DNA from: Acidobacteriota bacterium
GTDB taxonomy: Bacteria > Acidobacteriota > UBA4820
Length of the DNA stretch: 64,000 nt
Assembly: GCA_029559035.1 (NCBI GenBank)
Contig: JAKQCT010000001.1
Location: forward strand, 62,001 to 126,000
Reading direction: 5' to 3'
This document shows, in pieces, positions 1-32,773 of this stretch. How positions within the stretch are numbered: the first letter of the stretch is position 1; each line of letters opens with the position of its first letter. The notes beneath the pieces are model-generated. The model was not told the DNA's origin. It was given only the letters and a program-made list of their open reading frames with translations, and searched no databases. Position numbers and translations under genes: made by a program.

Positions 1-384
1 ACAAAAGAAACGCTGGTACATACGAGCCCGCAAATGTGGGGAACATGGTCGATCGGAGTATACGGATACAACGCAGGTTCCTATACCGTCACGGCAACTT
101 ATTCGACGGGAACAAATCCTCCGACCAATGCAATCCAGGGAACGGTTGCAGACTCGCAGGACATTGGAGTCTCCGGCATCAAGATGAAAACCGGTAATGT
201 GACAACCACGACAGACGAAACGGGAGGTTTTATTTTTGCAGGTCTTGAAGAGGGCGACTACACTCTTGAGCCTGGCGAGGATGCTGCGGTGATTTACACT
301 TTCGACCCTGCCAGCCGCAAGATAAAAATCAAGAAGAACGATGATCCGCATACCGGACAGGATTTTAAAGCTGCACCAAGGTGA
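1..384 (+). CDS. C-terminal part of a secreted protein (PPC-like beta domain followed by a carboxypeptidase-regulatory-like domain); 5' truncated by window edge
   Basis: Frame is open from base 1 (TKETLVHTSPQMWGTWSIGVYGYNAGSYTVTATY, then IQGTVADSQDIGVSGIKMKTG..TTTDETGGFIFAGLEEGDYTLEP). W.I.VyGYnaGsYtv resembles PPC domains of secreted peptidases. Confidence 0.6.
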   Translation, partial: TKETLVHTSPQMWGTWSIGVYGYNAGSYTVTATYSTGTNPPTNAIQGTVADSQDIGVSGIKMKTGNVTTTTDETGGFIFAGLEEGDYTLEPGEDAAVIYTFDPASRKIKIKKNDDPHTGQDFKAAPR

Positions 385-402
385 TGCCTATGAGCAATTC
401 AC

Positions 403-433
403 AAGCCTCCGCCGGTCTTCCCGGCGGAGGCTT
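403..433. terminator. 13-bp perfect GC-rich hairpin (AAGCCTCCGCCGG-TCTTC-CCGGCGGAGGCTT)
   Basis: Direct inverted repeat between the upstream stop codon and the SD of the next gene. Confidence 0.7.
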
Positions 434-447
434 TAATGGAGGTTGAA

Positions 448-2094
448 ATGAAGCTTTCCATTAGGCTTTTTCTCCTGATAACCGTGTTTTGCATCATCCC
501 CACCGCCGCTATTACCATGGAATCTCTTCCCGGACAAGTTCTCGGCATTTACGGGGGATCGGGCGATGATATGGGCTACAAGATTGCCAACGCGCCGGAT
601 GGAGGGTTCCTTCTTTGCGGGACGACAGAAAGCTTCGGCAACTCAAGGTATGATATTCCCGACATTCTCGCGATAAGGGTGGATTCCCAAGGTCGAATTG
701 TATGGCAGAAGGATTTCGGAGGGACGGGAAGCGAGTACCCATTCGGTCTGATAAGGACAAGGGATGGGGGCTATATAATTACGGGTGCCTCCTACAGTTT
801 TTTCGATTTCATTGCCGCGTGGGTAATAAAGATTACCGACGGCGGCGATGTTGTCTGGCAAAAAGCAATAGGTCCATATGCCTATGCAGCAGATATGACG
901 GAAGAGATGGCTGACGGAAGCGTGATTTTATCCGGCGCCTGGTATGACGAGCATTCTTATGATCACCCATGGATAGCAAAAATAGACCAAAACGGGAATA
1001 TTGTCTGGCAGAAGGCTATTATGACACCCTATGGCGATAACTGCCAAAACATTCTTGGGCTTGACGACATGGGTGTGGTCATCGGGACATTCTGCGGGAT
1101 TTATCGTTTTGACAGGGACGGGAACATGGCATGGGGCAAGATCCTAAGGGACTTTTCAAATGAGGAGGAAGGTTTCTACATCTCGGACATCGCGAAGGCG
1201 CAAACCGGGGGCTTTTTGCTGGCGAACGGCCGCCAATGGAAGGATGATAAGTACTTTAGGGCGGAACTGATGCGCGTATCGGAAGAAGGGGAGGTGATGT
1301 GGACAAAAAGCCATGATAATGACAATAGTGATACCGATGCTGGAACATGGCTGTATCAGATACTGTCTGTGGGCAACGGGAAGTATTACGCATGCGGCAA
1401 AGGTAATTATAACAACAATATTGGCGTGACTATGTTTTCGTTCGACGAGACTAGCGGCACAAATGAAGATTTTAAGATTTATTCTTCGTCCCTATTTATT
1501 CAAATTAACACATGGTTCAGTAAATTCGCGACAGTTGCCGCTGACGGCAATATTGCTTTTGCAGCTGATAGTTGGATAGGGGATTGGCAGGACAAGCGAT
1601 GGCAAATTGTTCTTGTCAAAACCGGGCTCGAAAATAGAATATCGGGTGGTTGCGCCGATACTTTAGAAGCCCCCATATCCTGGGAAGATATCTCAATTGC
1701 AGCACAGTCTGTCACTTATGATTTAAACGATGTAAATCCTGGGTGCATTGACACTGCGCCCTATAATTACTTAAATGAATCGCAGGCCAGTGGGATCAAC
1801 ACATTCTGTCCGGTGATCTACTCGGTCAGAAAGCTACAAAATCCATTGCGGCTGGAAATTATTGGCGATAATTTTACACTAAAAGGGGGCTATCAACAGT
1901 TTGATATAACTGTAGATGGCGTCGCCGTCCCGAATACGACCTGGAAAAGCGCATACAGGTTAATAGCTAAAAAAGGGGAGTCTCTTAAAGCCATGCTTCC
2001 AAAGGGCGTCCCCGTCTGCATAAAAATAAAAGGTAAGGCGCTGGACGATCCTTTGGGCCTTTATGAATCCGACTGTTTCACTTTTACTCGATGA
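448..2094 (+). CDS. Secreted delta-60/WD-like repeat protein with C-terminal IPT/TIG-like domain
   Basis: Signal peptide MKLSIRLFLLITVFCIIPTAAIT; repeated GGF..G.. / W.kI...G.vvWQK motifs; C-term NPLRLEIIGDNF...LPKGVPVCIKIKGK...SDCFTFTR. ATG at 448 preferred over 436 because GGAGG lies just upstream. Confidence 0.7.
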   Translation: MKLSIRLFLLITVFCIIPTAAITMESLPGQVLGIYGGSGDDMGYKIANAPDGGFLLCGTTESFGNSRYDIPDILAIRVDSQGRIVWQKDFGGTGSEYPFGLIRTRDGGYIITGASYSFFDFIAAWVIKITDGGDVVWQKAIGPYAYAADMTEEMADGSVILSGAWYDEHSYDHPWIAKIDQNGNIVWQKAIMTPYGDNCQNILGLDDMGVVIGTFCGIYRFDRDGNMAWGKILRDFSNEEEGFYISDIAKAQTGGFLLANGRQWKDDKYFRAELMRVSEEGEVMWTKSHDNDNSDTDAGTWLYQILSVGNGKYYACGKGNYNNNIGVTMFSFDETSGTNEDFKIYSSSLFIQINTWFSKFATVAADGNIAFAADSWIGDWQDKRWQIVLVKTGLENRISGGCADTLEAPISWEDISIAAQSVTYDLNDVNPGCIDTAPYNYLNESQASGINTFCPVIYSVRKLQNPLRLEIIGDNFTLKGGYQQFDITVDGVAVPNTTWKSAYRLIAKKGESLKAMLPKGVPVCIKIKGKALDDPLGLYESDCFTFTR

Positions 2095-2167
2095 CTTGTT
2101 CAAAGATACCGTTGCTGTTTTTGATTATTTCGTTGTCAATCTTGCCGTCAAGACTTTATGCCGCGAC
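2068..2167 (+). repeat. Copy 1 of ~100-bp direct repeat spanning a C-terminal IPT end/stop and the next gene's start/signal peptide
   Basis: tccgactgtttcacttttactcgatgacttgttcaaagatacc...agactttatgccgcgac; 2 mismatches by eye to 4041-4140. Confidence 0.9.
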
Positions 2168-2411
2168 AGCATCACCGACTTCAAGTGCCCACGCACCCTT
2201 GACAGTAACTTTTAGTTGTAGCGCAAGCGGTGGAACAGCACCATATAGCTACTTGTGGGATTTTGGTGACGGCGCTTCTTCAACAGAGGCAAATACAACA
2301 CATATATACAATTCTGTTGGTACGTTCACTGCAAAAGTAATCGTGGCCGATTTTAACGGGAACACTGCGCAAAAAACGTTTTTTATAAAGATCGGTGCAA
2401 TACATTTATAG
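2091..2411 (+). CDS. Small secreted PKD-domain protein
   Basis: Signal peptide MTCSKIPLLFLIISLSILPSRLYAATA; PKD motif YLWDFGDGASSTEANTTHIYNSVGTFTAKVIV; ATGA overlap with upstream stop. Confidence 0.65.
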   Translation: MTCSKIPLLFLIISLSILPSRLYAATASPTSSAHAPLTVTFSCSASGGTAPYSYLWDFGDGASSTEANTTHIYNSVGTFTAKVIVADFNGNTAQKTFFIKIGAIHL

Positions 2412-2423
2412 CGACATCGGGTC

Positions 2424-2446
2424 GGGGGGCGGCGATGCCGCCCCCC
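2424..2446. terminator. 10-bp perfect hairpin GGGGGGCGGC-GAT-GCCGCCCCCC
   Basis: Inverted repeat between the PKD gene stop and the SD of the next gene. Confidence 0.65.
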
Positions 2447-2465
2447 TGAAAAAATGGAGGAAAAC

Positions 2466-4067
2466 ATGAGCTTTAAAAAAAAATTTAAGCTCTTTTTAAT
2501 AACAATATTTCTTCTCCCTCTTTTAACGTACGCGGAAGAGCAATGGGTTCATATATACTCACCGTTGGACAACAAGCCGGGGTTTATCATTGATAAATTG
2601 ATTCCTTTTTCCGGCGGGGGTTATATTGGGACAGGCCATTGTTGCAAGGACGAATCATGTGATGGAGTCCTATTATATTTGGGAAGGACCGACAGCCACG
2701 GCAATTTCTTATGGGCGAAACAATTTGCGCAAGCAACAAATTGCTTGGGGCCGCCGCTGAATGTTCTTGACAATGGCGATGGGACGATCACCGTGACTAA
2801 AGTAAATTTCTCTTCGATAATCAAATTTGATGAAGACGGAAGCATCATCTTTGAAAAAGGATACCAAGACGGTTTGCTCATTGATATCATACATTCTGGC
2901 ACTATCAAAGCAAATAACGGAGACTTGTATTCGCTGATAGCAGACTCATTTAATAAGATGACATTACTGCGCATCAATAATTCGGATGGCAAAGCAGTGT
3001 TTGCTAAATATTTCCATTGGGGAGGGTTTTATTTTGAAGGAAAAGTTATTGCAGTTACCGCGGACAATAATATCGTCATGTTCGGCATAGGCGCGGATTG
3101 GTCCGGCGCTGTTATTGTAAAGGTTGATGAAAGCGGCGACGTTATTTGGGCGCGCCGCTGTGATGCGATTTATGAAAAATCTGACACACGGGCAGAGTAC
3201 CGTATGTCTGCCACGGGGGATGGCGGGTTTCTTTTGCTTGTCGCGCCGGAAGGGGGGAGCCTGCCCACAATTGTTATAAAGATGGACAAAGACGGTACTG
3301 TGGCTTGGCAGGAAAAGATAATCGTTTCTTACAATTCCCGCACGGAACCTGCTTATCTGCTGGGCGCGGCGGAAAACGAAGATGGTTCGATAATGATTGC
3401 GGGAATGACAAAGTCGGAAGATCCGGTAACGATCAAACTAAATGAAAAAGGAGAAGCGGTTTCAGGGACATTAATTTATGTTCCTTACTACAGTTTGGTC
3501 TGCCCTTCGGATATTGTGGCGACAAGCGAAGGATATGTGTTTATCAGCCATGGCCCATTCGGATTTAGTTGTTACGACTGGATGGGGGTGGGTGGAGCAA
3601 TCGGGACATTGGATCAAAACGGGAAACCGCCTGCCGAATGTTATGAATCAATAAATATTGATTCTGTTGCGGAAAGCACGTCATTGGTATTTTCGGCAAT
3701 TTTGCAACCCACAAGTGGGGACAGCGACCCCATAGTTGCTTATCCGATTTCCATATCCCTGATAGATGTACCCAATTATGTGGTTGGTTGCGGCGACTCG
3801 TGGCCGGCTATCCTCACCGCCCAAAAAGCATCAAACCCTTTCAGGCTGAAACTCACGGGCTGGAATTTCCAGCAGGGCAGCGAAGTGTATGTAAACGGAG
3901 TCAAAGCGGGAAAAGTTACGATCAAGGGCACGGACAGCTACAACAGGACTAAGATTGTTGTGAAGGGTTCTGATTTCAAAGCATTGCTTCCAAAAGGGCA
4001 ACCCGTCTGCATAACCGTCAAAAATCCAGACGGTCATGAGTCCGACTGTTTCACTTTTACTCGATGA
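2466..4067 (+). CDS. Secreted delta-60/WD-like repeat protein with C-terminal IPT/TIG-like domain (paralogue of 448-2094)
   Basis: Signal peptide MSFKKKFKLFLITIFLLPLLTYAE; repeated IKMDKDGTVAWQEKI-type motifs; C-term NPFRLKLTGWNFQQGSEVYVNG...LPKGQPVCITVKNPDGHESDCFTFTR. SD ggagg at 2456-2460. Confidence 0.7.
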   Translation: MSFKKKFKLFLITIFLLPLLTYAEEQWVHIYSPLDNKPGFIIDKLIPFSGGGYIGTGHCCKDESCDGVLLYLGRTDSHGNFLWAKQFAQATNCLGPPLNVLDNGDGTITVTKVNFSSIIKFDEDGSIIFEKGYQDGLLIDIIHSGTIKANNGDLYSLIADSFNKMTLLRINNSDGKAVFAKYFHWGGFYFEGKVIAVTADNNIVMFGIGADWSGAVIVKVDESGDVIWARRCDAIYEKSDTRAEYRMSATGDGGFLLLVAPEGGSLPTIVIKMDKDGTVAWQEKIIVSYNSRTEPAYLLGAAENEDGSIMIAGMTKSEDPVTIKLNEKGEAVSGTLIYVPYYSLVCPSDIVATSEGYVFISHGPFGFSCYDWMGVGGAIGTLDQNGKPPAECYESINIDSVAESTSLVFSAILQPTSGDSDPIVAYPISISLIDVPNYVVGCGDSWPAILTAQKASNPFRLKLTGWNFQQGSEVYVNGVKAGKVTIKGTDSYNRTKIVVKGSDFKALLPKGQPVCITVKNPDGHESDCFTFTR

Positions 4068-4140
4068 CTTGTTCAAAGATACCGTTGCTGTTTTTGATTG
4101 TTTCGTTGTCAATATTGCCGTCAAGACTTTATGCCGCGAC
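4041..4140 (+). repeat. Copy 2 of ~100-bp direct repeat (junction module)
   Basis: Near-identical to 2068-2167. Confidence 0.9.
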
Positions 4141-5485
4141 TGCCGACCATCTGTGGCTTCACGGCAATTGTTTGCCCGGAAATCCTCAATATGATGTTTC
4201 AGATGTCCCGTTGGTTGCTCTCGATTCGTTTGTTGATGATTGGATTAAGATCATTGCTGGTTGTTCGGGAAGCACCTTTCTCCGTTCCGATAAAAAACTG
4301 TTTCAATTCTGTCCTGATAACCAGGATGAACTTTGCTTTCTTATGGATAACGTCGATGCAGTAGCATCGGATGGAGCATATCGGCTTGTTTTAAAGCCTG
4401 ATGGGACAGTATGGGGGTGGGGAAGCAACAGGGAGGGGCAGCTTGGCGATGGAACTTATAACAATATCAGGCAAGAACCAGTTCAAGCGCTTGGAGTAAC
4501 AAACGTAAAACAAATTGCCATTGGAGTTGGAGCATCATACGCTCTTAAAGACGACGGCACAGTTTGGGCATGGGGGCGCGGAGAGAGCGGTCAACTTGGC
4601 GATGGACAATGGGGGTGTACTGTATTTCCGCCAGTAGACCCTGCCGATTGTTACATTTCAGTTTTGCCCAAACAAGTGACGAATTTGACAGATGTAAAGG
4701 CACTGTTCGACGGACCTTATGTAATTAAGAATGATGGTACTGTATGGGCATGGGGCCCGATCCCATGCATTCCTCCCTATCCCTCCGACCAATGCTGTAT
4801 GGCAACCATCCCGGTTCAAATAGAGGGCCTTGAGGATATCGTTTCGGTAGGCGACCACGTGGCACTCAAGGCTGATGGCACGGTATGGACCTGGGGGGAT
4901 AACGCTTATGGCAGGCTAGGAATCGGAACGATAGATCCCGATGAGGATCATTGCTATGCCGCCGTCATGGTACCCACTCTTTCAAACGTTACCTGGGTGG
5001 GAAGGCAGTTCGCCATAAAGGCTGATGGGACTTTGTGGGGATGGGGTTCTCACTATGGCCTGGGTATTCCACCCAACGGGGCTTATGCCTTCCCTACGCC
5101 CGTTCAGGTCAAGCCCTTGGGAAATGTCAAACTGGCATCCATATTCTCGGAAGGGTTCACCGATTACGCGATGGTCCTGGCGGGTGATTACGATCCTGTG
5201 ACTATAACCAATGTCGTGCCATTGAGCAGCCCTTTTAGAATCAAACTGAAGGGAACGGGCTTTTTATCAGGATTGGAGGTCTATCCAAACACGCCACCAG
5301 TTCTGTATGTTGACAGAACTGCAGTTGATAGGCTTGAAGTCAAGCTCAACAGGAAGGGAATGCTTTTATTCAAAAGCACACCGGCATCCATCCTGAAAAA
5401 TTATTTTCCAAAAGGGGTCACAAAGACGATCCAGATCAAGAACCCCGACGGCAGGATTTCCAACGAATTTCAATTCACGAGGTGA
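4064..5485 (+). CDS. Secreted RCC1-repeat protein with C-terminal IPT/TIG-like domain
   Basis: Signal peptide MTCSKIPLLFLIVSLSILPSRLYAATA; RCC1 motifs (LKPDGTVWGWGSNREGQLGDGT, LKDDGTVWAWGRGESGQLGDG, LKADGTVWTWGDNAYGRLGIG); C-term SPFRIKLKGTGF...FPKGVTKTIQIKNPDGRISNEFQFTR. Confidence 0.8.
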   Translation: MTCSKIPLLFLIVSLSILPSRLYAATADHLWLHGNCLPGNPQYDVSDVPLVALDSFVDDWIKIIAGCSGSTFLRSDKKLFQFCPDNQDELCFLMDNVDAVASDGAYRLVLKPDGTVWGWGSNREGQLGDGTYNNIRQEPVQALGVTNVKQIAIGVGASYALKDDGTVWAWGRGESGQLGDGQWGCTVFPPVDPADCYISVLPKQVTNLTDVKALFDGPYVIKNDGTVWAWGPIPCIPPYPSDQCCMATIPVQIEGLEDIVSVGDHVALKADGTVWTWGDNAYGRLGIGTIDPDEDHCYAAVMVPTLSNVTWVGRQFAIKADGTLWGWGSHYGLGIPPNGAYAFPTPVQVKPLGNVKLASIFSEGFTDYAMVLAGDYDPVTITNVVPLSSPFRIKLKGTGFLSGLEVYPNTPPVLYVDRTAVDRLEVKLNRKGMLLFKSTPASILKNYFPKGVTKTIQIKNPDGRISNEFQFTR

Positions 5486-5512
5486 TGGAGCATAATGGAT
5501 TCTCAACATGAA

Positions 5513-5538
5513 AATCCCCCTCCTTTCGGAGTGGGATT
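5513..5538 (-). terminator. Hairpin terminator copy 1 (AATCCCCCTCC-TTTC-GGAGTGGGATT)
   Basis: Hairpin with T-run on the minus strand, between convergent genes ending at 5485(+) and 5566(-). Confidence 0.75.
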
Positions 5539-5565
5539 AATTTGTAGCAGCGCTCTTATTTAAGA

Positions 5566-6207
5566 TCAGCAGGGGGGAGGAGGGCATTTGATAATACCGC
5601 AATTGGGAGGGAATTCGCATGAGCAACAGCACGTTCCTTCGAAGGTGGGGTAACTTCTGGAACAATCACAGCATCCGCAGTAAATTCTGAATCCATCTCC
5701 TCCCTGCATGGGAGTAACTGAAAAATCAATTGACGATGTATTGTCAACACCCATCACTGCCGCAGGAACTGTAGATAGCATGCCATCCTTTTCCACAAGG
5801 TACTCGATTCGAATGAGATCATCCTGTCCGATTTCCGGCGGGTAGTCAAGGGATATTTGGGGGGAAAGCTCCTCCATTGATATTGCAGATGTTTCTATAG
5901 ATGATAGGGGTTTTTTGGATGCCAGGAAGCCGCTTTTAACTTTGGCTGCATCTTTCTCGCAGAATACAACTAAAGGGATGGTCCCGCTTGGCTCGAAAGT
6001 TACCTTGACGGCCTTAATAAGATAAGGTTGAGTCGGCTCCTTTTTGAAATGAAGAGAAATGATAAAGCGATCGTCTATCTTTTCGGCCTTGAGGGCTACA
6101 CCTGCAGGTTCGATCAAGCCGGCCTGGCCTTTTTGAACTTCAGATTGCGCTTTGATTGCGGGGTTAAGTAAAAACAATGCTACAAAGACAAGCAAGGCCT
6201 TTTTCAT
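5566..6207 (-). CDS. Secreted protein with extremely Cys-rich C-terminal tail
   Basis: Signal peptide MKKALLVFVALFLLNPAIKAQ; tail YCGCCDCSRSYPTFEGTCCCSCEFPPNCGIIKCPPPPC has 11 Cys in 38 residues. Confidence 0.65.
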   Translation of the reverse strand: MKKALLVFVALFLLNPAIKAQSEVQKGQAGLIEPAGVALKAEKIDDRFIISLHFKKEPTQPYLIKAVKVTFEPSGTIPLVVFCEKDAAKVKSGFLASKKPLSSIETSAISMEELSPQISLDYPPEIGQDDLIRIEYLVEKDGMLSTVPAAVMGVDNTSSIDFSVTPMQGGDGFRIYCGCCDCSRSYPTFEGTCCCSCEFPPNCGIIKCPPPPC

Positions 6208-6255
6208 GGGTTCTTCCTCCTTTCATTCGGATAATGAAGCACTTTATCGTCACAA

Positions 6256-6277
6256 AGAGAATGAACGTACATTCTCT
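6256..6277. promoter_or_regulatory. Palindromic operator-like site AGAGAATGAACGTACATTCTCT (site 1)
   Basis: 22-bp inverted repeat with one mismatched pair, ~50 bp upstream of the 5566-6207 minus-strand start; similar to sites at 9747 and 11627. Confidence 0.6.
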
Positions 6278-6320
6278 TAAAACATTGTAAATAGCAAAAT
6301 GCCTCTTGTCAAGCATCAAA

Positions 6321-6346
6321 AATCCCCCTCCTTTCGGAGGGGGATT
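6321..6346 (-). terminator. Hairpin terminator copy 2 (AATCCCCCTCC-TTTC-GGAGGGGGATT) followed by T-run on minus strand
   Basis: Perfect 11-bp stem, 4-nt loop; a second hairpin TGCCGGA...TCCGGCA (6348-6376) lies between it and the stop of the TIR gene. Confidence 0.85.
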
Positions 6347-6395
6347 ATGCCGGACAAAGGGAGGCTTAATCCGGCAATATATGAGGCGCCCCGTT

Positions 6396-6971
6396 TCAAG
6401 GCATATCTTTAAAGGAAATGTCGTATAAGCTTCTTGTCTTGGGCACATATTCAGAAAGAAGTATCTTGTCCCCCTCGCTGAAAGATATCTCTTCTAAAAC
6501 CATTCCTTTTCGTACCATCTGCCCAAGTGGTTTCAACCAACGCTCCAGATCGGGAATGCTTATTAATAGGGGAGATATCCTTACATAGGAGGGCAGTTGC
6601 GTGACACTGCCCTGCACCAGATGTGCACAGCTCCGCTTCCTCCCGCTCGCACCCCCTATTTCATAGGGTACCCACCAAGAATCGAATGTCTTGTGTGTGA
6701 TGACGCCGAGAAGATGAGTGCAGGTCTCCAACCCCCGCTCGATGCATTCTACGATCTTTTTATGATCATCGGCAGCCGAGGCATTTTGCAGGTCATGATC
6801 ATACTCATCGAAGTAAACATCTATTCCCATCTGCCTGATTGACCGACTGACGGCCCTTGCCATTGCCTTGTCATCGCTCCGATGCGATATGAAGACGCAA
6901 TAATGGTCGTAAGACCTTGCAAGGCGGCGGATATCCTTGTAATTTTCAAATAGATTCTTTCCTTCCATCAT
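6396..6971 (-). CDS. TIR-domain protein
   Basis: YDHYCVFISHRSDDKAMARAVSRSIRQMGIDVYFDEYD (TIR beta-A/box 1); HLLGVITHKTFDSWWVPYEIGGA, with W/E in the usual TIR NADase Glu region. Confidence 0.85.
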   Translation of the reverse strand: MMEGKNLFENYKDIRRLARSYDHYCVFISHRSDDKAMARAVSRSIRQMGIDVYFDEYDHDLQNASAADDHKKIVECIERGLETCTHLLGVITHKTFDSWWVPYEIGGASGRKRSCAHLVQGSVTQLPSYVRISPLLISIPDLERWLKPLGQMVRKGMVLEEISFSEGDKILLSEYVPKTRSLYDISFKDMP

Positions 6972-6977
6972 TTCCTC

Positions 6978-7454
6978 CTATTCCTGCCGTTCCAGAGCAG
7001 TAAGATCCTCAACGTCGGCCATTTGAGCCAGCATCGACGAGTAAGTTCTCAGCTTGTCTTGTAATTCCTGCAATTCCTTCCGAAACAACTCGCACTGCTT
7101 CTTTTTCTTGAATGCCCCATCCAGATCCAGCTTGTGCCACTTGGCAGTGAAAGGCCGGACAATTTGATTAAGAACTACAATCGCTATCTTTGTGAATTCT
7201 TCGCAGTCACGGCCGTGGTCCTTGATTATCCCGCGAGTAAGCCCGAATATCGAATTTATGCTTTCCAGGGCGGTATTTTCGTCGCCGTGCTTTTCAGGCA
7301 GCGGCTGAGTCGTGATCCGTGTCAGCAATTCGATGTAAAGTTCCCAGGCCGCAGCCTTATCCTCTTCTTTGGGCTTCCACACCATTTCAAGGAAAGGAGT
7401 ATTGATCTTCAAGGAGGTCATGTCCCAGTTTTCAAGCCATTTTTTCCATTTCAT
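6978..7454 (-). CDS. Uncharacterised conserved-looking helical protein (158 aa) next to TIR gene
   Basis: MKWKKWLENWDMTSLKINTPFLEMVWKPKEEDKAAAWELYIELLTRITTQPLPEKHGDE...; adjacent to TIR ORF on same strand, 6-nt gap. Confidence 0.65.
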   Translation of the reverse strand: MKWKKWLENWDMTSLKINTPFLEMVWKPKEEDKAAAWELYIELLTRITTQPLPEKHGDENTALESINSIFGLTRGIIKDHGRDCEEFTKIAIVVLNQIVRPFTAKWHKLDLDGAFKKKKQCELFRKELQELQDKLRTYSSMLAQMADVEDLTALERQE

Positions 7455-7496
7455 GCATATCTCCTGAATAGTGGTGGCGGGAAACAGGCAACTTGT

Positions 7497-7778
7497 CTAG
7501 AATATGAATACAAATACCCCATTGCTTGATCCAGAGGATCTGAAATCAGCGTCTTTCATTCCAAGATAATCAACGAAATAATGGCGTATTGCCTCTGCGT
7601 CGTGAAGAGAATCCGCCGGCCATTGCCCCCACTTTTCGAGATTATTCCCTTCGGCGGCAAGCTGCTCAAGTCTTTTATCAGGTGAATCGGTCATGCCGAT
7701 TGTCCAAATATGGTAGTCGAGCACTTTTGAAGACTCCACCCGTCTGATTATCTGCTTTACTATTTCCATCTTGTTCAT
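7497..7778 (-). CDS. Small (93 aa) protein with possible GIY-YIG-like fold
   Basis: YHIWTIGMTDSPDKRLEQLAAEGNNLEKWGQWPADSLHDAEAIRHYFVDYLGM: G.T..p..R...H-like and w.a.s...A..ie.yF pattern. Confidence 0.45.
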   Translation of the reverse strand: MNKMEIVKQIIRRVESSKVLDYHIWTIGMTDSPDKRLEQLAAEGNNLEKWGQWPADSLHDAEAIRHYFVDYLGMKDADFRSSGSSNGVFVFIF

Positions 7779-7831
7779 AACCGTTTCTCCTATGGAATGA
7801 CAATTTAATCACATCGTAAATCGTGGTGAGT

Positions 7832-8380
7832 TCAGTAGCGCCATTGGTCCCCGGATTTGTTATATGAAAACGAAGGGAAAGAAATATCCGGTTCAACCGC
7901 GTTCCTTTTGTCGAAGGCATCCTGTATCCATTCACGGATGTCGTCGGGGTTATTTGTCCAGTTGTGCAGTTTGGCGTAACCGCATTTGACGTTGTCATAT
8001 AATCGCGGCGGGATCGTATAAGGATTGTAGTTTGTCATTGAGGCCCTGGGATAAGTCGGCAACAGGATCCCCAGTAATCCGGAACGTGGATTTAGGCGGG
8101 TATCCCTGATACTTGAGGATATCTCCCAATCGATATGTTTTCTCCTCCATGTATCGCTTCCCACGAGGACAACCGTTACCGTCGTATCCCTAAGGTATTC
8201 ATCCCTGATTTTTTGCCTTATCGTATCCGAAGGAAGATTCGGGTCAATATCGCCTTCTTCCACGGCCATGGAGATGAATACTTCATAGTAATCCGCGAAC
8301 ATCTTCCTGAAAAGGGTTTTGTAATCCTCATCGTTCTCGTGATGGTAACTTATAAACGTTTTATGCTTTTCGAAAATCAT
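7832..8380 (-). CDS. TIR-like (DUF1863/MTH538, ThsB-like) protein
   Basis: HKTFISYHHENDEDYKTLFRKMF...DTTVTVVLVGSDTWRRKHIDWEISSSIRD matches the DUF1863 pattern (K.FISy.h.nD...; tvtvvLiG..T..r..v.wEi..s). Confidence 0.75.
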   Translation of the reverse strand: MIFEKHKTFISYHHENDEDYKTLFRKMFADYYEVFISMAVEEGDIDPNLPSDTIRQKIRDEYLRDTTVTVVLVGSDTWRRKHIDWEISSSIRDTRLNPRSGLLGILLPTYPRASMTNYNPYTIPPRLYDNVKCGYAKLHNWTNNPDDIREWIQDAFDKRNAVEPDISFPSFSYNKSGDQWRY

Positions 8381-8435
8381 GGCAATTCCTTTCCATCAAG
8401 GCGCACATGAGCGTAAATCCATTTGAATCGTCGAC

Positions 8436-8508
8436 ACCCTCCGCCTTGAGATGGGGACCAAGGCGGAGGGTTGGCGGGCGGGCATCGGTTTCGAGGGTCC
8501 TGCCCGCC
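8436..8508. promoter_or_regulatory. Two adjacent hairpins between TIR-like gene and upstream 224-aa gene
   Basis: ACCCTCCGCCTTG (8436-8448)/CAAGGCGGAGGGT (8459-8471) and GGCGGGCA (8477-8484)/TGCCCGCC (8501-8508). Confidence 0.55.
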
Positions 8509-8561
8509 TTTATTGCTCTCCATGAGGGTGATGGAGAGTTCAAGGGGCTTTCCTTCATTTT

Positions 8562-9236
8562 TTATGCCTTCGGCGGTTCGGGCGGGGTATCGTCATCGTC
8601 TTTTTTGGGCTTGGAGACTTTCTTGAAGAATGTGTCGGCGCTTCGTTTATCCCCGTCCAGGACGGAAAGCACATCGCCGTAGCTCTTGCTGTAGGCGACA
8701 AGCCAGTTGATCTTTTCGGCCTCCACAAGCTCCCACGCGTTGCTCGCGGCGGTGATGGCCGCCTTGAGGCCCGCGATTGACTTCTGGTATGTCTCAAGCA
8801 ATGCCTTCAGGTTCGGCAGAATTCTTGCCACAACCGGGTCATCCGGGGTTTCGGAAAGAACCCCGATCAAAGCGGTGACTTTGCCCGCTTCTTCATCGAA
8901 ACTGCACCTGATCAAGGCCGTCAGCCCGTCCGGGAACCACCTGAGGACGGCGGGGTCTTTCTTGTTGTTCCCGCACGCCCCGAGCTTTGAAAAGTAAAGG
9001 TCGCGCACGGTGTTGTCCAAATCATAGTCCGCCTTGACCATCTGCGCTTCAAGCGCCGAAATCGTCCTTTGGGCCTGGTTGAACGCGTTGCCTTTTCTTT
9101 CAAGCTCTTCCTGCCTTTTTTTGAAACTTTCCGCCAAATCCTTCATTTTCGGATCCGCTTCAAGGCGTGAATGCGTAAATACTCCAAACTCGTTTACCAT
9201 TGTCAGCCAACCGATACTGCCTTTTACCATCTCCAT
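8562..9236 (-). CDS. Uncharacterised mostly helical protein (224 aa)
   Basis: MEMVKGSIGWLTMVNEFGVFTHSRLEADPKMKDLAESFKKRQEELERKG...; good SD (ggagg) upstream on minus strand; no recognised domain. Confidence 0.6.
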   Translation of the reverse strand: MEMVKGSIGWLTMVNEFGVFTHSRLEADPKMKDLAESFKKRQEELERKGNAFNQAQRTISALEAQMVKADYDLDNTVRDLYFSKLGACGNNKKDPAVLRWFPDGLTALIRCSFDEEAGKVTALIGVLSETPDDPVVARILPNLKALLETYQKSIAGLKAAITAASNAWELVEAEKINWLVAYSKSYGDVLSVLDGDKRSADTFFKKVSKPKKDDDDTPPEPPKA

Positions 9237-9746
9237 TTGAATCCTCCTTCAAAAAAGTGCCCGCTTCAGAAATAAATTGGTTTATGAGTCAAGTCGGGAC
9301 GCCCCGACATGGCAAAAAAGGCCTCTTTTATGGAAGTATTTCCTCCGACCCCACTACAACATCCATTTTCTATCGCGTCGGAAATCAGAAACGGCAGAAA
9401 AAGAACTGTTGAAGGATCTAGGGAAAATTCGGAATGAGAGAAATACTCGTTTGTCGCCGTTGTCGGCGGGCAGACTTGAAAAAAAACAGGTTCTCCTACC
9501 GTTCCGGCAGGAGTTCTTCTGAAAAACACCTGAGAAATGGAGGGTTCTGGCGACTTTTTACTCTTTTTAAATGGTTCATTGGTTTTTTCTTGTTTCCCAA
9601 GAAGGATCAAACCCACTGCCACCTCCTGTTGATATTACGCTGAACAAGTTGCTTTGAATGTTTTCATACCAATTCATTTCAGACATCCGCTTGAAAAAGC
9701 TCATTGCCGCCTCATGAGAAAAACGCAATTCTATTCCCTAATAATG

Positions 9747-9760
9747 AATGAACGTTCATT
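9747..9760. promoter_or_regulatory. Palindromic operator-like site AATGAACGTTCATT (site 2)
   Basis: Perfect 14-bp palindrome. Confidence 0.6.
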
Positions 9761-9814
9761 TCAAGAGGTGAGCTTATAATATTTATTAGGCTGTTGTCAA
9801 GAGCCGAATAAAAA

Positions 9815-9840
9815 AATCCCCCCTCTTTCGAAGGGGGATT
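9815..9840 (-). terminator. Hairpin terminator copy 3 (AATCCCCCC-TCTTTCGAA-GGGGGATT), T-run on minus strand, plus second hairpin at 9842-9869
   Basis: Stem directly visible; CCCGGCAG (9842-9849)/CTGCCGGG (9862-9869) lies between it and the stop of the 9897-10619 gene. Confidence 0.8.
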
Positions 9841-9896
9841 ACCCGGCAGAAGAGGCGCCGACTGCCGGGATGTATCAGGAGGATGGTACGAGTTGC

Positions 9897-10619
9897 CTAG
9901 GAAGATAGAGAGGATATGCATTCTAAAGCCAATTTTGTCGATTCCTTTTTTGGCGTTTTTTTGAAAAGAAGTCCAAGGTCAAATTTTACCGCTATCGACG
10001 GATCATTTTCGAATACTCTCTTAGCCGTTCGTTCAAGGCGTTTTAATGTAAGGAATGTATGTCCTTTGAGGATGAGGAAGTCACGGGTGTTATCGGAAAG
10101 TGCTGCTATAGCCTTTTCCAGAGTAGTGCGACCGAGAAAAAGTCCTTCCATGATTTCCCTTCCCTCACGAATATCATTTTGCGAAAACCCCCATATCTCC
10201 AGCGGTTCGCGGAATTTCTGGGCAACAACAATAAGGGATTTGATCCGGTTCTCTACCTTTAGTATGTCGCATCCGGTTTTGCCACGAAGATGAAACTCAT
10301 CCCTGATTTCTGGCTCTTCTTGAAATGCATTATCAGCGGTTAGTGTAAGGTTTCTTATCCACTTCATCGCAGATTGAAAGAAAACCTCGACGAAGTCGCA
10401 TGCCGCCATTGAAGATTCCAGATCGGGTCGTTCCTCCTGATTCATCAATAGCGTTAATAGCAGTTGTTCAAGACCCTCAACCTCCTCATCCGGATACTTC
10501 CCTATCAGATCTACGGCATATCCTTTGGCCAACGCCAGACATATCTGGCTCTGTTCGATCAGCCTAATGGCCGAAAATTTGGTTCCGATCATCGCAAGCA
10601 TATTATCGTCCAGAGGCAT
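9897..10619 (-). CDS. Uncharacterised helical protein (240 aa)
   Basis: Long ORF with coding-like composition; starts 41 bp after the upstream minus-strand gene. Confidence 0.55.
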   Translation of the reverse strand: MPLDDNMLAMIGTKFSAIRLIEQSQICLALAKGYAVDLIGKYPDEEVEGLEQLLLTLLMNQEERPDLESSMAACDFVEVFFQSAMKWIRNLTLTADNAFQEEPEIRDEFHLRGKTGCDILKVENRIKSLIVVAQKFREPLEIWGFSQNDIREGREIMEGLFLGRTTLEKAIAALSDNTRDFLILKGHTFLTLKRLERTAKRVFENDPSIAVKFDLGLLFKKTPKKESTKLALECISSLSS

Positions 10620-10660
10620 GAATTTCTCCTTATGTATTTTCTTCCATATCGGGAAGATAT

Positions 10661-11566
10661 TTATCCATCATGTCGTGGTAGTGGCATATTCTTTCGTTCC
10701 TGCAAATCCGCAACTATTAAAAAATCGTCTGAATGCGTTTTAATTTGATCCATACCAATCCCATCTACTGATAATGCGAGAAGGTTGTCGCCGTCCTTAA
10801 GATTGATGGTGACTATGTCCCATCCTCCCGGGTTCCTTCGAAAAAGATTGGAAATGATCATATCGTTAAATCTGGCTTTAAAAGTCTCCGGAATTATCGC
10901 AAGATCATAGAATATGATCAAGGAGAATGCACTTGTTCCGGCAGGCAGTATTATGGTCGGTGCGATAAGATTTGCATACGTCAAGAAGGTCGGATTATTC
11001 TTGTTATCTGTTGCGTATCCGCCTTTGATAAAACTCCCCCTCATATTGTCACTGTTATAGTAAAGGAAATACTTATGAGGTATTCCTGGAAAATATGGAA
11101 TATTCTCGTAGCATTTCGTCAGCCTTTCATAGTTGTAGTTCCGTGCATGGATTTCCATCGTGTAAGCTGGTATATTTCCCTGGGCATCGTTAACGGTGAT
11201 GCCGTAATATCCGCTTTCAGCATGATTTACATAAAACTCTTTACAATCAGATTCTGCTCCCTGGCCGATCTTACAGGAATATGAAGAGGGAATTATATTG
11301 GGAGACACATTGCCGTAAGAGTCAATTTCCATTGTTTGGCCAAAGGGATCTTTAACGGAAAGGCCGACTTGTCCATATATTTTGATACTTACGCTATTTA
11401 AAGTGGTTGCATCGATTTTCGATGAACTTCGTATCGGATTGCGAAAACCTGATGCTTCTCTTTCTTCTTTTGATTTGATTACTCTTGTTGTTATACCCGC
11501 GATCACCAGAGCAGTTATCAATAAGAAAGCTAAAATCACTCCGGAGATTATAATCGCCATTTTCAT
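10661..11566 (-). CDS. Membrane-anchored uncharacterised protein with one N-terminal TM helix
   Basis: MKMAIIISGVILAFLLITALVIAGITTRVIKSK then a beta-rich region; ATG at 11566 preferred to GTG at 11623. Confidence 0.6.
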   Translation of the reverse strand: MKMAIIISGVILAFLLITALVIAGITTRVIKSKEEREASGFRNPIRSSSKIDATTLNSVSIKIYGQVGLSVKDPFGQTMEIDSYGNVSPNIIPSSYSCKIGQGAESDCKEFYVNHAESGYYGITVNDAQGNIPAYTMEIHARNYNYERLTKCYENIPYFPGIPHKYFLYYNSDNMRGSFIKGGYATDNKNNPTFLTYANLIAPTIILPAGTSAFSLIIFYDLAIIPETFKARFNDMIISNLFRRNPGGWDIVTINLKDGDNLLALSVDGIGMDQIKTHSDDFLIVADLQERKNMPLPRHDG

Positions 11567-11626
11567 AATTGGTTCATTCTCCGCATGCCGTTCCTTTACC
11601 GTTAACTCAAGATGAACGCCCACTTA

Positions 11627-11640
11627 ATTGAACGTTCATT
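11627..11640. promoter_or_regulatory. Palindromic operator-like site ATTGAACGTTCATT (site 3)
   Basis: TGAACGTTCA perfect core, ~60 bp upstream of the 11566 minus-strand start. Confidence 0.6.
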
Positions 11641-11724
11641 CAGAAAGCGATGGTACTCCCGCGCGGGATGTTTGTCAAGCCCCGTTTCCGCGTTCAGGAA
11701 AAAGCGCAATATTCCGGCTCCCGC

Positions 11725-11737
11725 GGGGGGGGGGGGG
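11725..11737 (+). repeat. Homopolymeric (G)13 tract
   Basis: ccgcGGGGGGGGGGGGGcttgaca read directly. Confidence 0.85.
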
Positions 11738-11767: not shown

Positions 11768-11795
11768 TTGAATCCTTGTTTTGGGGAGGTTGAAA

Positions 11796-12410
11796 ATGAC
11801 GCCTTCAAGGAAAGAGAGAGAAAGGGAACTCAGGGTAAGGCTGGTACTCGAGGCCGCCGAAAAAGTGTTCGGCAAGAAATCCTACGAGGACGCTTCGATG
11901 CTCGAGATCGCCAAGGAAGCGCAGCTCGGGATGCAGAGTCTCTACAACACCTTTCAGAGCAAGCGGGACCTCTACGAGAGCCTGGTCACCTACCGGATAA
12001 GCAAGTTCAGGGCGGCGATGGACGAAGTCTTCAAGAAGAACGAAGACCCTCTGGAAGCGCTGCGCGAATGGACTACGGAACATTTCAAGACTTTCGCCGA
12101 CCTTTCGGCCTTCTACCCCGTGTTCCTCAAGGAGAGGTTCAACTACGTCTGGGGGTTCAAGTCGCGCTCCCTTCCCGCGCTTACCGTCGCTTTTCAGAAG
12201 GAGGAGAAGAGGCTGGTCGGCCTGCTGGAGAAGGCTCAAAGGGCGGGCTACCTTAAACCCGTACCGATAGAACAGGTCAAGACCGTTTTCGTCGGGCTTC
12301 TTCAGTCCAGGCTCGAATACCATTTCCTTAACAAGAAGCCGATAGAGGTGAACCAATGCGTGGAAGAAACCTTGAGCATTTTCCTCGATGGATTAAAGCC
12401 GCAGTCCTGA
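11796..12410 (+). CDS. TetR/AcrR family transcriptional regulator
   Basis: RLVLEAAEKVFGKKSYEDASMLEIAKEAQLGMQSLYNTFQSKRDLYESLV, typical TetR HTH; SD ggggagg upstream. Confidence 0.9.
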   Translation: MTPSRKERERELRVRLVLEAAEKVFGKKSYEDASMLEIAKEAQLGMQSLYNTFQSKRDLYESLVTYRISKFRAAMDEVFKKNEDPLEALREWTTEHFKTFADLSAFYPVFLKERFNYVWGFKSRSLPALTVAFQKEEKRLVGLLEKAQRAGYLKPVPIEQVKTVFVGLLQSRLEYHFLNKKPIEVNQCVEETLSIFLDGLKPQS

Positions 12411-26411: not shown

Positions 26412-27464
26412 ATGATGACCCTGAAGATGCTTGATACCAAACTGGATTCGATCCCGGTTTCCACCGCATGGAATCTCTCGTGGCTTGCAGAAGCCAAGGG
26501 CAGACAGGAGCTTTATTCGAACCGGTCTCCCCAAAAGCTGAAAACTCTGAAGGAGCACGCGCTCATTCAGAGCGCCGTTTCATCGAACAGGATAGAAGGA
26601 GTGGAAGTAAAAAAGGCGAGAGTCGGAACGGTCATATTCGGCAGAAAGCTTCTGAACGATCGCGACGAGGAGGAAGTCAGAGGATATCGGGACGCGCTCG
26701 GCCTCATCCATGAAAAGGGCTGTAAATTGGGAGTCACCGAAAAAACCATCCTGGTTCTTCACAAGCTCGCGAGGGGGAAGGTGTGGGATGCGGGCAGCTA
26801 TAAAAAGGAAGAGAGCGACATCATAGAGAAGTACAAGGACGGCAGGAGCAGAGTACGGTTTCGGACGGTTCAGGCGGCTCAAACCCCTTTATTCATGAAA
26901 AAACTTGTTGCGGATTACCAAAAAGTTTTGAATGAACAGAGAATCCCGCCTCTGATCCTCGCCATCGCCTTCAATCTTGATTTCTTATGCATCCACCCCT
27001 TTCGCGACGGGAATGGAAGAGTATCCCGGCTTCTTCTCCTCCTTGAAATCTACCGCTGCGGGTTGGAGGTCGGGAGATATGTGAGCATCGAGCGTCTGAT
27101 AGAGCAGAACAAGGAGCGCTATTACGAAACCCTTGAAGAAAGCTCGAAAGGATGGCACGAGGGGAGGCACGATCCGTGGCCTTACATCAATTATGTCCTG
27201 TTCATACTAAAAGAAGCCTACAGGGATTTCGAGCGGAAGCTTCAGAGCACCGCCGTCCAAAAGGGGGAAAAGAGCTCCCTGATCTTCAATGCCGTTCAGA
27301 ACATGAATGAACCTTTCAAGATCTCGATGATAAAAGAGGAAGTGCCCGGAGCAAGCCTTGAGCTTATAAGAAAGGTCCTGAAAAACCTGCAAGCCGAGGG
27401 ACGGGTGAAATGCCTCGGGCGCGGCCCCAACGCCCAGTGGAAGAGACTCAAGCCCGTCAAATAG
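26412..27464 (+). CDS. Fic/DOC family protein with C-terminal winged-HTH-like domain
   Basis: Fic motif HPFRDGNGRVSR; N-term QSAVSSNRIEGVEV (inhibitory-helix-like S..IEG); C-term wHTH-like region. Confidence 0.92.
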   Translation: MMTLKMLDTKLDSIPVSTAWNLSWLAEAKGRQELYSNRSPQKLKTLKEHALIQSAVSSNRIEGVEVKKARVGTVIFGRKLLNDRDEEEVRGYRDALGLIHEKGCKLGVTEKTILVLHKLARGKVWDAGSYKKEESDIIEKYKDGRSRVRFRTVQAAQTPLFMKKLVADYQKVLNEQRIPPLILAIAFNLDFLCIHPFRDGNGRVSRLLLLLEIYRCGLEVGRYVSIERLIEQNKERYYETLEESSKGWHEGRHDPWPYINYVLFILKEAYRDFERKLQSTAVQKGEKSSLIFNAVQNMNEPFKISMIKEEVPGASLELIRKVLKNLQAEGRVKCLGRGPNAQWKRLKPVK

Positions 27465-27479
27465 ATAATACCCATTATA

Positions 27480-27502
27480 TAGGTAATGGAATAGGTAATA
27501 TG
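27480..27502. repeat. 23-bp direct repeat TAGGTAATGGAATAGGTAATATG copy 2, downstream of Fic gene
   Basis: Exact match to 26357-26379. Confidence 0.9.
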
Positions 27503-27555
27503 GCAAGCCTCGGCAGGTTTCGTTTAAATCGAAAATTGAAAAGTGAAGGTTGGAT

Positions 27556-27614
27556 GGTAGCCGCGCCCTTCACGGGCGCGCCCGCGGGCATAAAGCCCGC
27601 GCCTACCCGTAGCC
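27556..27614. repeat. 59-bp REP-like element copy 2
   Basis: Near-identical to 26251-26309. Confidence 0.85.
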
Positions 27615-27730
27615 TTCCGCTTTCAGCCTGTCTGGTGGGTCGGTCTTTGCGAAGAGCTCATCGAAGCGTTATCCCTTCTGCGGCAATCTACCCTATCCCG
27701 GTAATTCAAGAGTAAAACCGGAGCACGGCA

Positions 27731-27759
27731 CAATATGCAAATATGCAAGCCTGACCCCG
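27731..27759 (+). repeat. Left 29-bp inverted repeat CAATATGCAAATATGCAAGCCTGACCCCG
   Basis: Perfect reverse complement of 32774-32802. Confidence 0.92.
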
Positions 27760-28126
27760 GTCATGGTCACTTTGAAGAAGAATAGGTTATGAACCTTAAT
27801 AAGATCATCTCAATTTGATTGTCTGTGAAGGAGAATTCAATTCAACAGTTCATCTCTATTGACATGTAAAACAATTTCAAATAAAATCTTAGTCTATAAG
27901 AGTAAGTATATGTGAAAGCTCTTAGAATGGTGGATAAAATTAATGAGATGCTTACTTGTTTCAGTTTTTTAAGCGGACTTTTTAGATGGAATCCGCACTA
28001 AATGATGATTCTGATTCATTTATCTGGTATTTTAAAAGAAAACCATGAAAGATGTGGATCTGGCTGCCAATATTTTCCGTTGGTTGAACAATCTGATAAA
28101 GGATTAATCAAAAAGGAGGGTGTGAA

Positions 28127-30472
28127 ATGAGGGCAAAATCATTGTTTTTCATTTTTATTGTGTTGGTCTGTATGTTGCTGACCACAGTCCTGTTTGCTCA
28201 GTCAACTCCCGAAGAGATGCAAGTGATAATTGACAACCAAGGATTAAGCTGGAAAGCTGAATGGACACCCTACTCCAATTTATCAGCCGAGGAATTGCAG
28301 GGGCTTTTAGGAACCTCTGATACACCAAGTAACTTTGTTCACGAACCTACAATAATACCTCCGCCAATAACGCCACTTCCAAGTAGTTTTGATTGGAGGA
28401 ATAAAGTGGGGCATAATTATGTCACGGGAATAAGGAATCAAAAAAAGGATTATAACGGAAATTTAGTAAACTGCGGATCCTGTTATGCACATGCAACAAC
28501 CGCAGCCCTTGAATCCCATATGTTAATCCAGATGGAAAAACCAGATGCAAACCTTGATCTGTCAGAACAAATGATGGTAGGAAATTGTTCAAACCAACAT
28601 CCCGGTGATTGTGCAAATGGTGGCTACATTTCCGCGGCTACTGCATTTCTCGCAAACCCGGGAATTTCTGAAGAATGGTGCGATCCATATAGGGGAACGA
28701 GTGAAGGTTGCGCGAATGCTTGTCCTGATTGGACTTCTCATAGATATTATCTTACTGGTTCAAGCATGGTAGCCTTTAGTAAAGATCAGATAAAAAACGC
28801 CATATATACCTATGGACCTGTTGTGGCAGATATGAGTGTTACAAATGATTTTGCACAGTATTATGGTTTATACAGCGGAGTTTATGAATCTCCCAGTTGC
28901 TGTATTTACGGCAGTTGTACCTCATGTTTGGGAGACCTTCCGATTTGCTCTCAGGATGGTTGTGGTTCTGTAACGAGAAGTTGCGTGGCATACCATTCTA
29001 TTTTGATCGTCGGTTGGCAGGATGATCCCAGTATTGCGTCGTGGGGAGGTGGCTATTTTATTGGAAAAAACAGCTGGGGAGAGAGCTGGGGTGTAAATGG
29101 TTTTTTCAAGATAGCTTATTCTCAAATGAACAATTGTATAAAGTTCGGAAGGAATGCCTTTGTATACACCTCTTCTTCAACATCACAGCCGGTTTATTCC
29201 ATCGAAGGTCAAGTCAATGGTTATTATGGACCGAATTGTTGCATTAATGCCTCAATCACAGTATTTAATCAGGAAAATGCCGTGGTCCAACAAACCGCCT
29301 GCAGCAGGAAGCCGGGTACCTCTTCTTATTACCGCATGTTATTGCCAGGTGGATCTTACACTTTGACAGCAACAGAGCCGAGTCCTTCAGAGGGTTATAC
29401 ATTTAACCAGCCGACGACAACTGTTAATCTCGCGGGATCTAACCTAACGGGAATCAATTTTATTGCTTACGGCAAATATTCCATATCTGGCAATACTACT
29501 TTCAATAGTACCCCGTTGGCTAATGTTACAATAAAAATTACAGGAACCGCGCTACCAACAAATGGATACACTACAACAAGCAATTACAATGGACTTTATA
29601 GCATGCCATTTCTTTTACCTGGAACATACACTATAACACCGACATTAAACGGATATGTATTTTCTGCTGCAACTGTTAATATTTCGAACGCGAGTCAAAC
29701 AATGGATTTTTCTGCCACTCAAGAAACTTATAGCGTATCTGGCACGATAACAAAATGTGGAAATCCAGATCCTTCTGTTCAAGTTAAATCTATTGATGCA
29801 AATGGAGGAATGACATATGCATACACCAATATTTCAGGTAATTATACGATCAGTGGTCTTATCAATGGCACTTATACGATAAAAGCAAACAAGTCCTTAA
29901 TGACAAAATTCTCGCCAACATCCCAGAGCGCAACTATTAACGGCCACAATATTACAGGAATTAACTTCCAAGAGGTGGCGCTATGTAGAATATGTTCACA
30001 AAGCTATTTTGATGGCTTAAAAACATGCGACCTAAGAGATGAGGATGACACCTGTTTCCGTTCCAATCTTGATAGCTACACGGCATGTATCATCAATCAA
30101 ACTATTAATAGTAGTTCTCCTCTTTATGGACAGCTTCTTCTGGCAACAACCGCTAGTAGAGCTAAGGGGCAACCTGTTAATGAGGAGCATACATTTCATG
30201 TTGCTTCTGAAGGGGACTATTATGTCAATATTGTAAACGGCGACGGTGAAAATTCAAACACCCTTGTTTCGTCAGCAACTATTGACATTTCAGATATTGG
30301 TCAAATTATTCGCCCCAATGAGTTTAACAAAAATGTTGCTTTAATATCAAAGCCAGTTCATTTAATGGAGGGCGAATATGTGCTTACCTCTAATGTTAGA
30401 AGCCAACCTGGTTCTTACATTACAATTATCCTTTCAAGTTTCGATCTGTCATCGGGCGGGGAATTGCCATAA
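28127..30472 (+). CDS. Secreted papain-family (C1A) cysteine protease with several carboxypeptidase-regulatory-like domains
   Basis: Signal peptide; NCGSCYAHATTAALESHM (catalytic Cys), AYHSILIVGWQDD (His), GKNSWGESWGVNGFFKI (Asn); repeated G.V....G.YT..gL..GtYTi domains. Confidence 0.9.
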   Translation: MRAKSLFFIFIVLVCMLLTTVLFAQSTPEEMQVIIDNQGLSWKAEWTPYSNLSAEELQGLLGTSDTPSNFVHEPTIIPPPITPLPSSFDWRNKVGHNYVTGIRNQKKDYNGNLVNCGSCYAHATTAALESHMLIQMEKPDANLDLSEQMMVGNCSNQHPGDCANGGYISAATAFLANPGISEEWCDPYRGTSEGCANACPDWTSHRYYLTGSSMVAFSKDQIKNAIYTYGPVVADMSVTNDFAQYYGLYSGVYESPSCCIYGSCTSCLGDLPICSQDGCGSVTRSCVAYHSILIVGWQDDPSIASWGGGYFIGKNSWGESWGVNGFFKIAYSQMNNCIKFGRNAFVYTSSSTSQPVYSIEGQVNGYYGPNCCINASITVFNQENAVVQQTACSRKPGTSSYYRMLLPGGSYTLTATEPSPSEGYTFNQPTTTVNLAGSNLTGINFIAYGKYSISGNTTFNSTPLANVTIKITGTALPTNGYTTTSNYNGLYSMPFLLPGTYTITPTLNGYVFSAATVNISNASQTMDFSATQETYSVSGTITKCGNPDPSVQVKSIDANGGMTYAYTNISGNYTISGLINGTYTIKANKSLMTKFSPTSQSATINGHNITGINFQEVALCRICSQSYFDGLKTCDLRDEDDTCFRSNLDSYTACIINQTINSSSPLYGQLLLATTASRAKGQPVNEEHTFHVASEGDYYVNIVNGDGENSNTLVSSATIDISDIGQIIRPNEFNKNVALISKPVHLMEGEYVLTSNVRSQPGSYITIILSSFDLSSGGELP

Positions 30473-30496
30473 AAGTGATAGTATAGAAATGCCAAA

Positions 30497-30523
30497 GGCG
30501 GGAAGCACAAAAAGCTTCCCGCC
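30497..30523. terminator. 10-bp hairpin GGCGGGAAGC-ACAAAAA-GCTTCCCGCC
   Basis: Inverted repeat between papain-like gene and the start of the next gene. Confidence 0.65.
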
Positions 30524-30544
30524 ACTGTGGTAAAGGAACATGGC

Positions 30545-32737: not shown

Positions 32738-32773
32738 AAAATAGATTCCAAGGGCTCCATCCCCAATTATGCG

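Follow-up and report, generated by a model that had tools for sequence, protein, structure and literature searches.

A conserved unnamed helical partner of TIR proteins, encoded within a probable envelope and efflux regulon of an Acidobacteriota bacterium

Which genes in a block of eight same-strand genes belong to a TIR system, and what is that system made of? The question is raised by a 64,000-nucleotide stretch of an Acidobacteriota genome (the window, positions 62001-126000 of contig C99 in a 2.86-Mb assembly), for which a sequence-only reading had proposed an undescribed TIR-based island of eight minus-strand genes in three units. TIR enzymes take part in the immunity of bacteria, plants and animals alike, and what largely distinguishes the bacterial TIR systems known so far is the partner that receives the signal. 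An open reading frame (ORF) check of the window finds all eight genes where they had been placed. The eight-gene island, however, has to be given up, since the middle unit (9236->6396) alone is TIR-related and the flanking units encode exported proteins. What stands is the proposal of an undescribed TIR-based module, and it is the recurrent pairing of TIR genes with the gene for a 158-amino-acid (158-aa) helical protein that supports it.

Both TIR assignments of the sequence-only reading are borne out. The 182-aa product of 7832-8380 (minus strand), taken there for a DUF1863/ThsB-like protein, matches ThsB_TIR (PF08937, E=2.9e-21) and, by sequence, the PDB entry of ThsB1 (9b7d). Its catalytic-position Glu86 is invariant in an alignment of relatives, and its structural model, with a predicted local distance difference test (pLDDT) score of 74, has EcThsB, a B. 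cereus TIR and the ThsB-Tad3 complex among its Foldseek matches. The canonical TIR protein of 191 aa (6396-6971, minus strand) matches TIR_2 (PF13676, E=6.3e-9) and aligns with TIR structures of the AbTir/BtTir type at its catalytic-position Glu104. The key component is the 158-aa protein (6978-7454, minus strand), rightly described as uncharacterised: it has no relative in Pfam, NCBIfam, PADLOC or the PDB. Profile searches, suggested earlier for each ORF, yield a family above the cut-off for the two TIR proteins and none for the other six (Pfam, NCBIfam, PADLOC). A text search of the open-access literature gave no description of the 158 family, which is weak evidence of novelty.

The 158 family is widely scattered. 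With the 158-aa sequence alone as query, a scan of 85,462 species genomes recovered 14 loci at 63-74% identity in at least seven phyla, the records including Zixibacteriota, Gammaproteobacteria, Campylobacterota, Clostridiales, Desulfobacteraceae/Desulfobacterales, Verrucomicrobia, a cyanobacterium and others. A profile search in three phyla found members in 5/297, 5/399 and 16/293 genomes. Relatives, mostly more distant, are carried by plasmids of Photobacterium, Sinorhizobium, Calothrix, Vibrio, Rhizobium, Mesorhizobium, Streptomyces and Ruegeria; no homologue was found in the INPHARED phage records. AlphaFold2 models the protein as a bundle made of helices only (pLDDT 81), in which the N-terminus has low confidence. 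That N-terminus, MKWKKWLENWDMTSLKI, is nearly invariant within the main clade, and RPFTAKWH is a highly conserved motif of the family. A transmembrane helix takes the place of this N-terminus in three distant members (L083, L088, L090) and, as judged by eye, in a fourth (L026).

Does the 158 gene truly keep company with TIR genes? Loci were gathered by the 158 sequence alone, without regard to TIR, after which a TIR profile was run over all ORFs and Pfam over the matches. Among the 38 loci with at least 2 kb on both sides, 33 have a TIR gene within 2 kb of the 158 gene, usually adjacent to it and on the same strand, and in many loci at a distance of 0-40 nt or overlapping. This number counts two loci (L086 and L091) where the TIR ORF overlaps the 158 match, and becomes 31/38 when overlapping ORFs are set aside. 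The same genomes hold 237 TIR_2 genes in about 179 Mb (1.3/Mb), so that about 0.7% per locus would be expected by chance. The binomial P is ~1e-65, or ~1e-42 if one assumes the density found in the richest genome, relatedness among the loci (about 15 of them cyanobacterial) being ignored. Every sampled phylum with more than one usable locus displays the association. Pfam assigns TIR_2 to 45, TIR to 26 and ThsB_TIR to 17 of 50 neighbour proteins. One genome (G860) has a single TIR_2 gene in 5.2 Mb, which abuts the 158 gene; in another (G770), each of the two 158 genes is adjacent to one of the two TIR_2 genes. Recurrence had been proposed as a check on the combination TIR, 158-aa, DUF1863 and 93-aa genes; it is strong for the first three, but the 93-aa gene has no relative.

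In most close pairs, conservation is higher for the 158 protein than for the ThsB next to it (74 vs 57%, 72 vs 44% and 69 vs 32% identity), and 158 can therefore be regarded as the constant part, combined with variable TIRs. Across 50 TIRs neighbouring 158-type genes, no internal column is invariant except F8 and that of the catalytic-position glutamate. A Zixibacteria locus (L007) has the same order as the window, that is ThsB-TIR, 158 and TIR, the window having the 93-aa gene inserted after the first, and four loci (L008, L015, L017, L083) have a ThsB-TIR or TIR gene immediately beside 158. Elsewhere the TIRs are fused to WD40, TPR, GUN4, caspase-type or ParA-type parts. The 158 domain can itself be fused: in Sinorhizobium, Rhizobium and Mesorhizobium it forms the N-terminus of a long protein, in which Pfam recognizes a patatin in Mesorhizobium and, below the cut-off, in Sinorhizobium. 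On rhizobial plasmids (L022, L025, L028), a 158-type domain is N-terminal in a long patatin-type protein with several TIR genes around it. On two prophage-like IMG/VR contigs (L117 and L118), TIR+158 pairs are found in the company of integrases, a CI-like repressor, a holin and an endolysin, their TIRs being 36% and 58% identical to the two TIR types of the window; on L117 the 36% identical relative of the 6396-6971 TIR lies next to a 158-type gene. As a query against viral sequences the 191-aa TIR gave no match, its relative on L117 surfacing only through the 158 search, and a TIR search of plasmids gave generic TIR matches.

How is the operon embedded in its host? The three-unit picture holds as far as it goes. 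The three minus-strand terminators, at 9815-9840 for the upstream unit, 6321-6346 for the TIR operon and 5513-5538 for the downstream unit, are mutually 86-97% identical, and the three matching palindromes are present as well, the third, earlier put at 6256, starting at 6260. But these elements are a mere fragment of a set of eight operators that reaches beyond the window. The palindrome AATGAACGTTCATT lies at 9747-9760 before the TIR operon (promoter -35 at 9800-9795, -10 at 9778-9773), at 6260-6273 before the 213-aa unit (TTGACA-17-TACAAT, 6312-6284) and at 11627-11640 before the 301-aa/240-aa unit (TTGACA-17-TACCAT, 11678-11650), in each case closely 3' of a promoter on the minus strand whose -35 box is a perfect TTGACA. 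If two mismatches are allowed, the 2.86 Mb contain 13 sites, a reversed-pattern control giving 12. Eight of the 13 fall in one 25-kb stretch, C99:48,531-73,640 (Poisson P ~4e-13), which has about 45% G+C vs about 58% for the contig; five of these eight copies lie upstream of the window. All eight have the same layout, with TTGACA, a 16-18-nt spacer, a -10 box and the palindrome some 8-13 nt further, at the expected transcription start, and of the five sites outside the island, inspected by eye, none lies behind a promoter of such arrangement.

The operator at contig position 48531 precedes a TetR gene at contig 47925-48509 (PF00440, PF22604; hereafter TetR1), followed by the gene of an HlyD/CusB-type membrane-fusion protein. 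Further operators stand before a PagL lipid-A deacylase, before a unit encoding a patatin and three exported proteins that are paralogues, and before a transglutaminase-like protein, while the one at contig 58495 is followed by a plus-strand run of exported proteins (window part 1-5485), possibly a single unit. The remaining three belong to the 213-aa unit, the TIR operon and the 301/240-aa unit. As in TetR-family regulons, a palindrome covers the promoter start region, one copy precedes tetR with seven further operons carrying another, and an efflux gene is adjacent; unlike in such regulons, the eight operons are clustered in one island and include an immune-type TIR operon. On the simplest reading, to judge by position, one repressor, probably TetR1 next to the membrane-fusion gene, would control all eight. 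As the operators are common to the TIR operon and to efflux and envelope genes, they link these rather than define a TIR island. The two TIR proteins and a TetR-type regulon are the ordinary parts of the locus; unusual are the conserved, unnamed and horizontally spread TIR partner and the presence of an immune-type operon within an envelope and efflux regulon.

The island also contains duplicated pieces of the TIR operon. C99:54,312-54,499 is 83% identical to 68,305-68,494, the 3' end of the window TIR gene with its terminator, so that what remains of the end of another TIR gene lies upstream; C99:54,220-54,287 is 84% identical to 71,702-71,768, the promoter, operator and leader of the TIR operon. 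The relic as a whole (C99:54,220-54,499, or L003:14220-14499) adjoins the unrelated transglutaminase gene. The island has thus been reshuffled through the duplicated modules.

What, then, might the module be? We favor, with a probability of roughly 60%, a two-part Thoeris-like immune module without ThsA, in which variable TIR enzymes work with one constant helical partner, the 158 protein. A Thoeris system consists, by definition, of a single ThsA together with at least one ThsB protein (PMC11204291). A TIR with a predicted NADase-type active site is present, as indicated by PF08937, Glu86 and the ThsB folds among the top Foldseek matches, and a scan of the eight genes and of neighbouring island genes detected no ThsA, whether of SIR2-SLOG or TM-macro type. 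The locus is therefore not filed as Thoeris, though it may work alike. With Thoeris it shares a ThsB-type TIR with a glutamate at the catalytic position and a layout in which a single constant gene is accompanied by one TIR gene or several; it differs in that the constant partner is a 158-aa helical protein devoid of SIR2, SLOG or any recognised enzyme domain. The resemblance extends to Thoeris with a TM-macro ThsA (PMC11204291), where TIR genes also go with one constant, possibly membrane-acting partner, but the 158 protein has no macro domain, and a transmembrane helix is clear in few members only. That ThsA, a CBASS cyclase, an NLR and STING are missing, as the sequence-only reading had held, agrees with profile scans of the eight genes and the neighbouring island genes tested, and no CD-NTase, STING or STAND NTPase was detected in the operon.

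The favored reading builds on the recurrence, the conserved catalytic-position residues, the patatin fusions, the prophage carriage and the eight common promoter-operators. By analogy with Thoeris, the TIR protein would sense infection or damage and use NAD+, either making an ADP-ribose-type signal or depleting NAD+; we infer its NADase activity. The 158 protein could be the signal receiver and effector, or an adaptor that holds and activates the TIR. The role that we favor is a receiver or adaptor acting at the membrane, at which the transmembrane helix of a few members and the patatin fusion hint. On this reading, the module (ThsB-like TIR, 158 and second TIR) was gained horizontally by the host and brought under the probable control of a TetR-family repressor, which would also govern the efflux gene, PagL, the patatin, the transglutaminase-like protein and the secreted proteins. 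When the envelope is damaged or a toxic compound is present, the TIR operon would then be released from repression along with the envelope genes, and the module may act in abortive infection. Only tentatively do we go further and propose that 158 is the constant receiver/effector of a new, widespread, ThsA-independent class of TIR signalling, connected in this host to a TetR protein that senses envelope-active compounds; a suicide system would then be armed by chemical or envelope stress.

Several observations weigh against this picture. Five of the 38 loci have no TIR neighbour (L012, L027, L085, L102 and the broken copy L105), and TIR and 158 distances correlate modestly (Mantel r=0.50, p=0.015). 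Few members have a clear N-terminal membrane anchor, most showing no such helix, and the 158 model, compared with PDB folds, gave nothing better than E ~2 and matched no Death-like fold. Among 13 genomes of the host class, the module is found in the host only, and its role in the host lineage can therefore not be assessed by conservation. As to control, it is by its position that TetR1 is the putative binder of AATGAACGTTCATT; a second TetR gene (11781-12410) adjoins the 11627 operator, and its own promoter has no AATGAACGTTCATT palindrome.

Among the alternatives, the one that survives best would make 158 a new effector-associated adaptor domain (EAD), joining TIR and other effectors by protein contact without a signal molecule. 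Of the known concepts, that of EADs comes closest to a small helical partner. In the vWA-MoxR/iSTAND conflict systems (PMC7159879, PMC8195603) such small, helical, non-catalytic domains are coupled to TIR and other effectors, and 158, with its predicted bundle, its TIR neighbours and its patatin fusion, has these features too; it occurs standalone or effector-fused, near TIR-WD40, GUN4, FGE and caspase proteins, a gene company similar to that of the cited systems. However, 158 is usually standalone, most loci have no second copy for homotypic contact, and the window has no vWA, MoxR or STAND component. Moreover, 22 family members matched no EAD profile in Pfam at E<=0.5, the coverage of all EADs by Pfam not having been checked. 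We hold this explanation to be possible, if on balance unlikely.

Improbable in our view is a toxin-antitoxin logic, in which 158 would inhibit the TIR enzyme or regulate it in the manner of an antitoxin. Its small size and helical nature, the adjacent or overlapping genes, usually on the same strand, and the conservation of RPFTAKWH would fit such a role. Antitoxins, however, usually track their toxin, whereas a single conserved 158 pairs with very different TIRs (the WD40, TPR, GUN4, caspase-type and ParA-type fusions), and the patatin fusion joins it to an effector enzyme. More doubtful still is an explanation by envelope or stress physiology, in which the TIR genes would have no immune role and be regulated together with the efflux and envelope genes of a TetR regulon. 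The operators held in common with PagL, patatin, transglutaminase and efflux genes speak for it, but TIR+158 pairs of like kind occur on prophages, on plasmids and in many phyla, and the operator palindrome was not found at those other loci, save for one chance-level site. That the locus is ordinary Thoeris, with ThsA elsewhere in the genome or lost and the 158 gene a bystander, is highly improbable despite the ThsB_TIR match and the two TIR genes reminiscent of multi-ThsB Thoeris loci, because 158 recurs as a TIR neighbour across phyla and no SIR2, SLOG or macro gene is present among the locus and island genes tested, ThsA elsewhere in the genome not having been searched.

The conserved unnamed TIR neighbour, found in very distant bacteria and phospholipase-fused in some, is a concrete candidate for a new receiver or adaptor. 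The host locus, in turn, suggests that an immune operon can come under an efflux-type TetR switch.

The other genes of the block (93, 224, 240, 301 and 213 aa) lack the recurrence of TIR and 158. The 93-aa ORF (7497-7778, minus strand), an orphan inside the TIR operon known as an ORF only, has no relative in 297 genomes, plasmids or the TIR loci; its earlier description as GIY-YIG-like was rejected, the best profile being MUG113 at E=0.13, under the cut-off, with no PDB match. The first gene of the operon (8562-9236, minus strand) encodes a 224-aa helical protein of a multi-copy family of the host's class, with six matches in its own genome and 28-53% identity in genomes of the same order. No TIR is near the copies in L107-L109, and the gene is probably a passenger. 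Some copies of this family (L035-L050) are preceded by open frames with short SESNALDRVIPAG-type peptide repeats. The 240-aa helical protein (9897-10619, minus strand) belongs to a class-restricted family. A role of the 224- and 240-aa genes as TIR partners is unsupported, the checked copies lying away from TIR genes except for one distant 240-aa paralogue; this paralogue, at C30:3868 (L106, G000:C30:3817-10922), lies some 3.5 kb from the one TIR_2 gene that the genome has besides that of the window.

In the flanking units, the 301-aa membrane-anchored or exported protein (10661-11566, minus strand) is a paralogue of the island's exported trio (30% identity, E=5e-31), and the 213-aa Cys-rich exported protein (5566-6207, minus strand), a separate unit under the same operator, has a signal-like N-terminus and no family. 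About 13 consecutive G are found on the plus strand at window positions ~11724-11736, between the divergent TetR gene and the 11627 operator. Two 108-bp repeats, 96% identical (window 2063-2170 and 4036-4143), encode the signal-peptide end of two secreted proteins. A second low-GC stretch (39-47%) at window positions ~27000-33000 encodes long secreted proteins, one of them papain-like in appearance.

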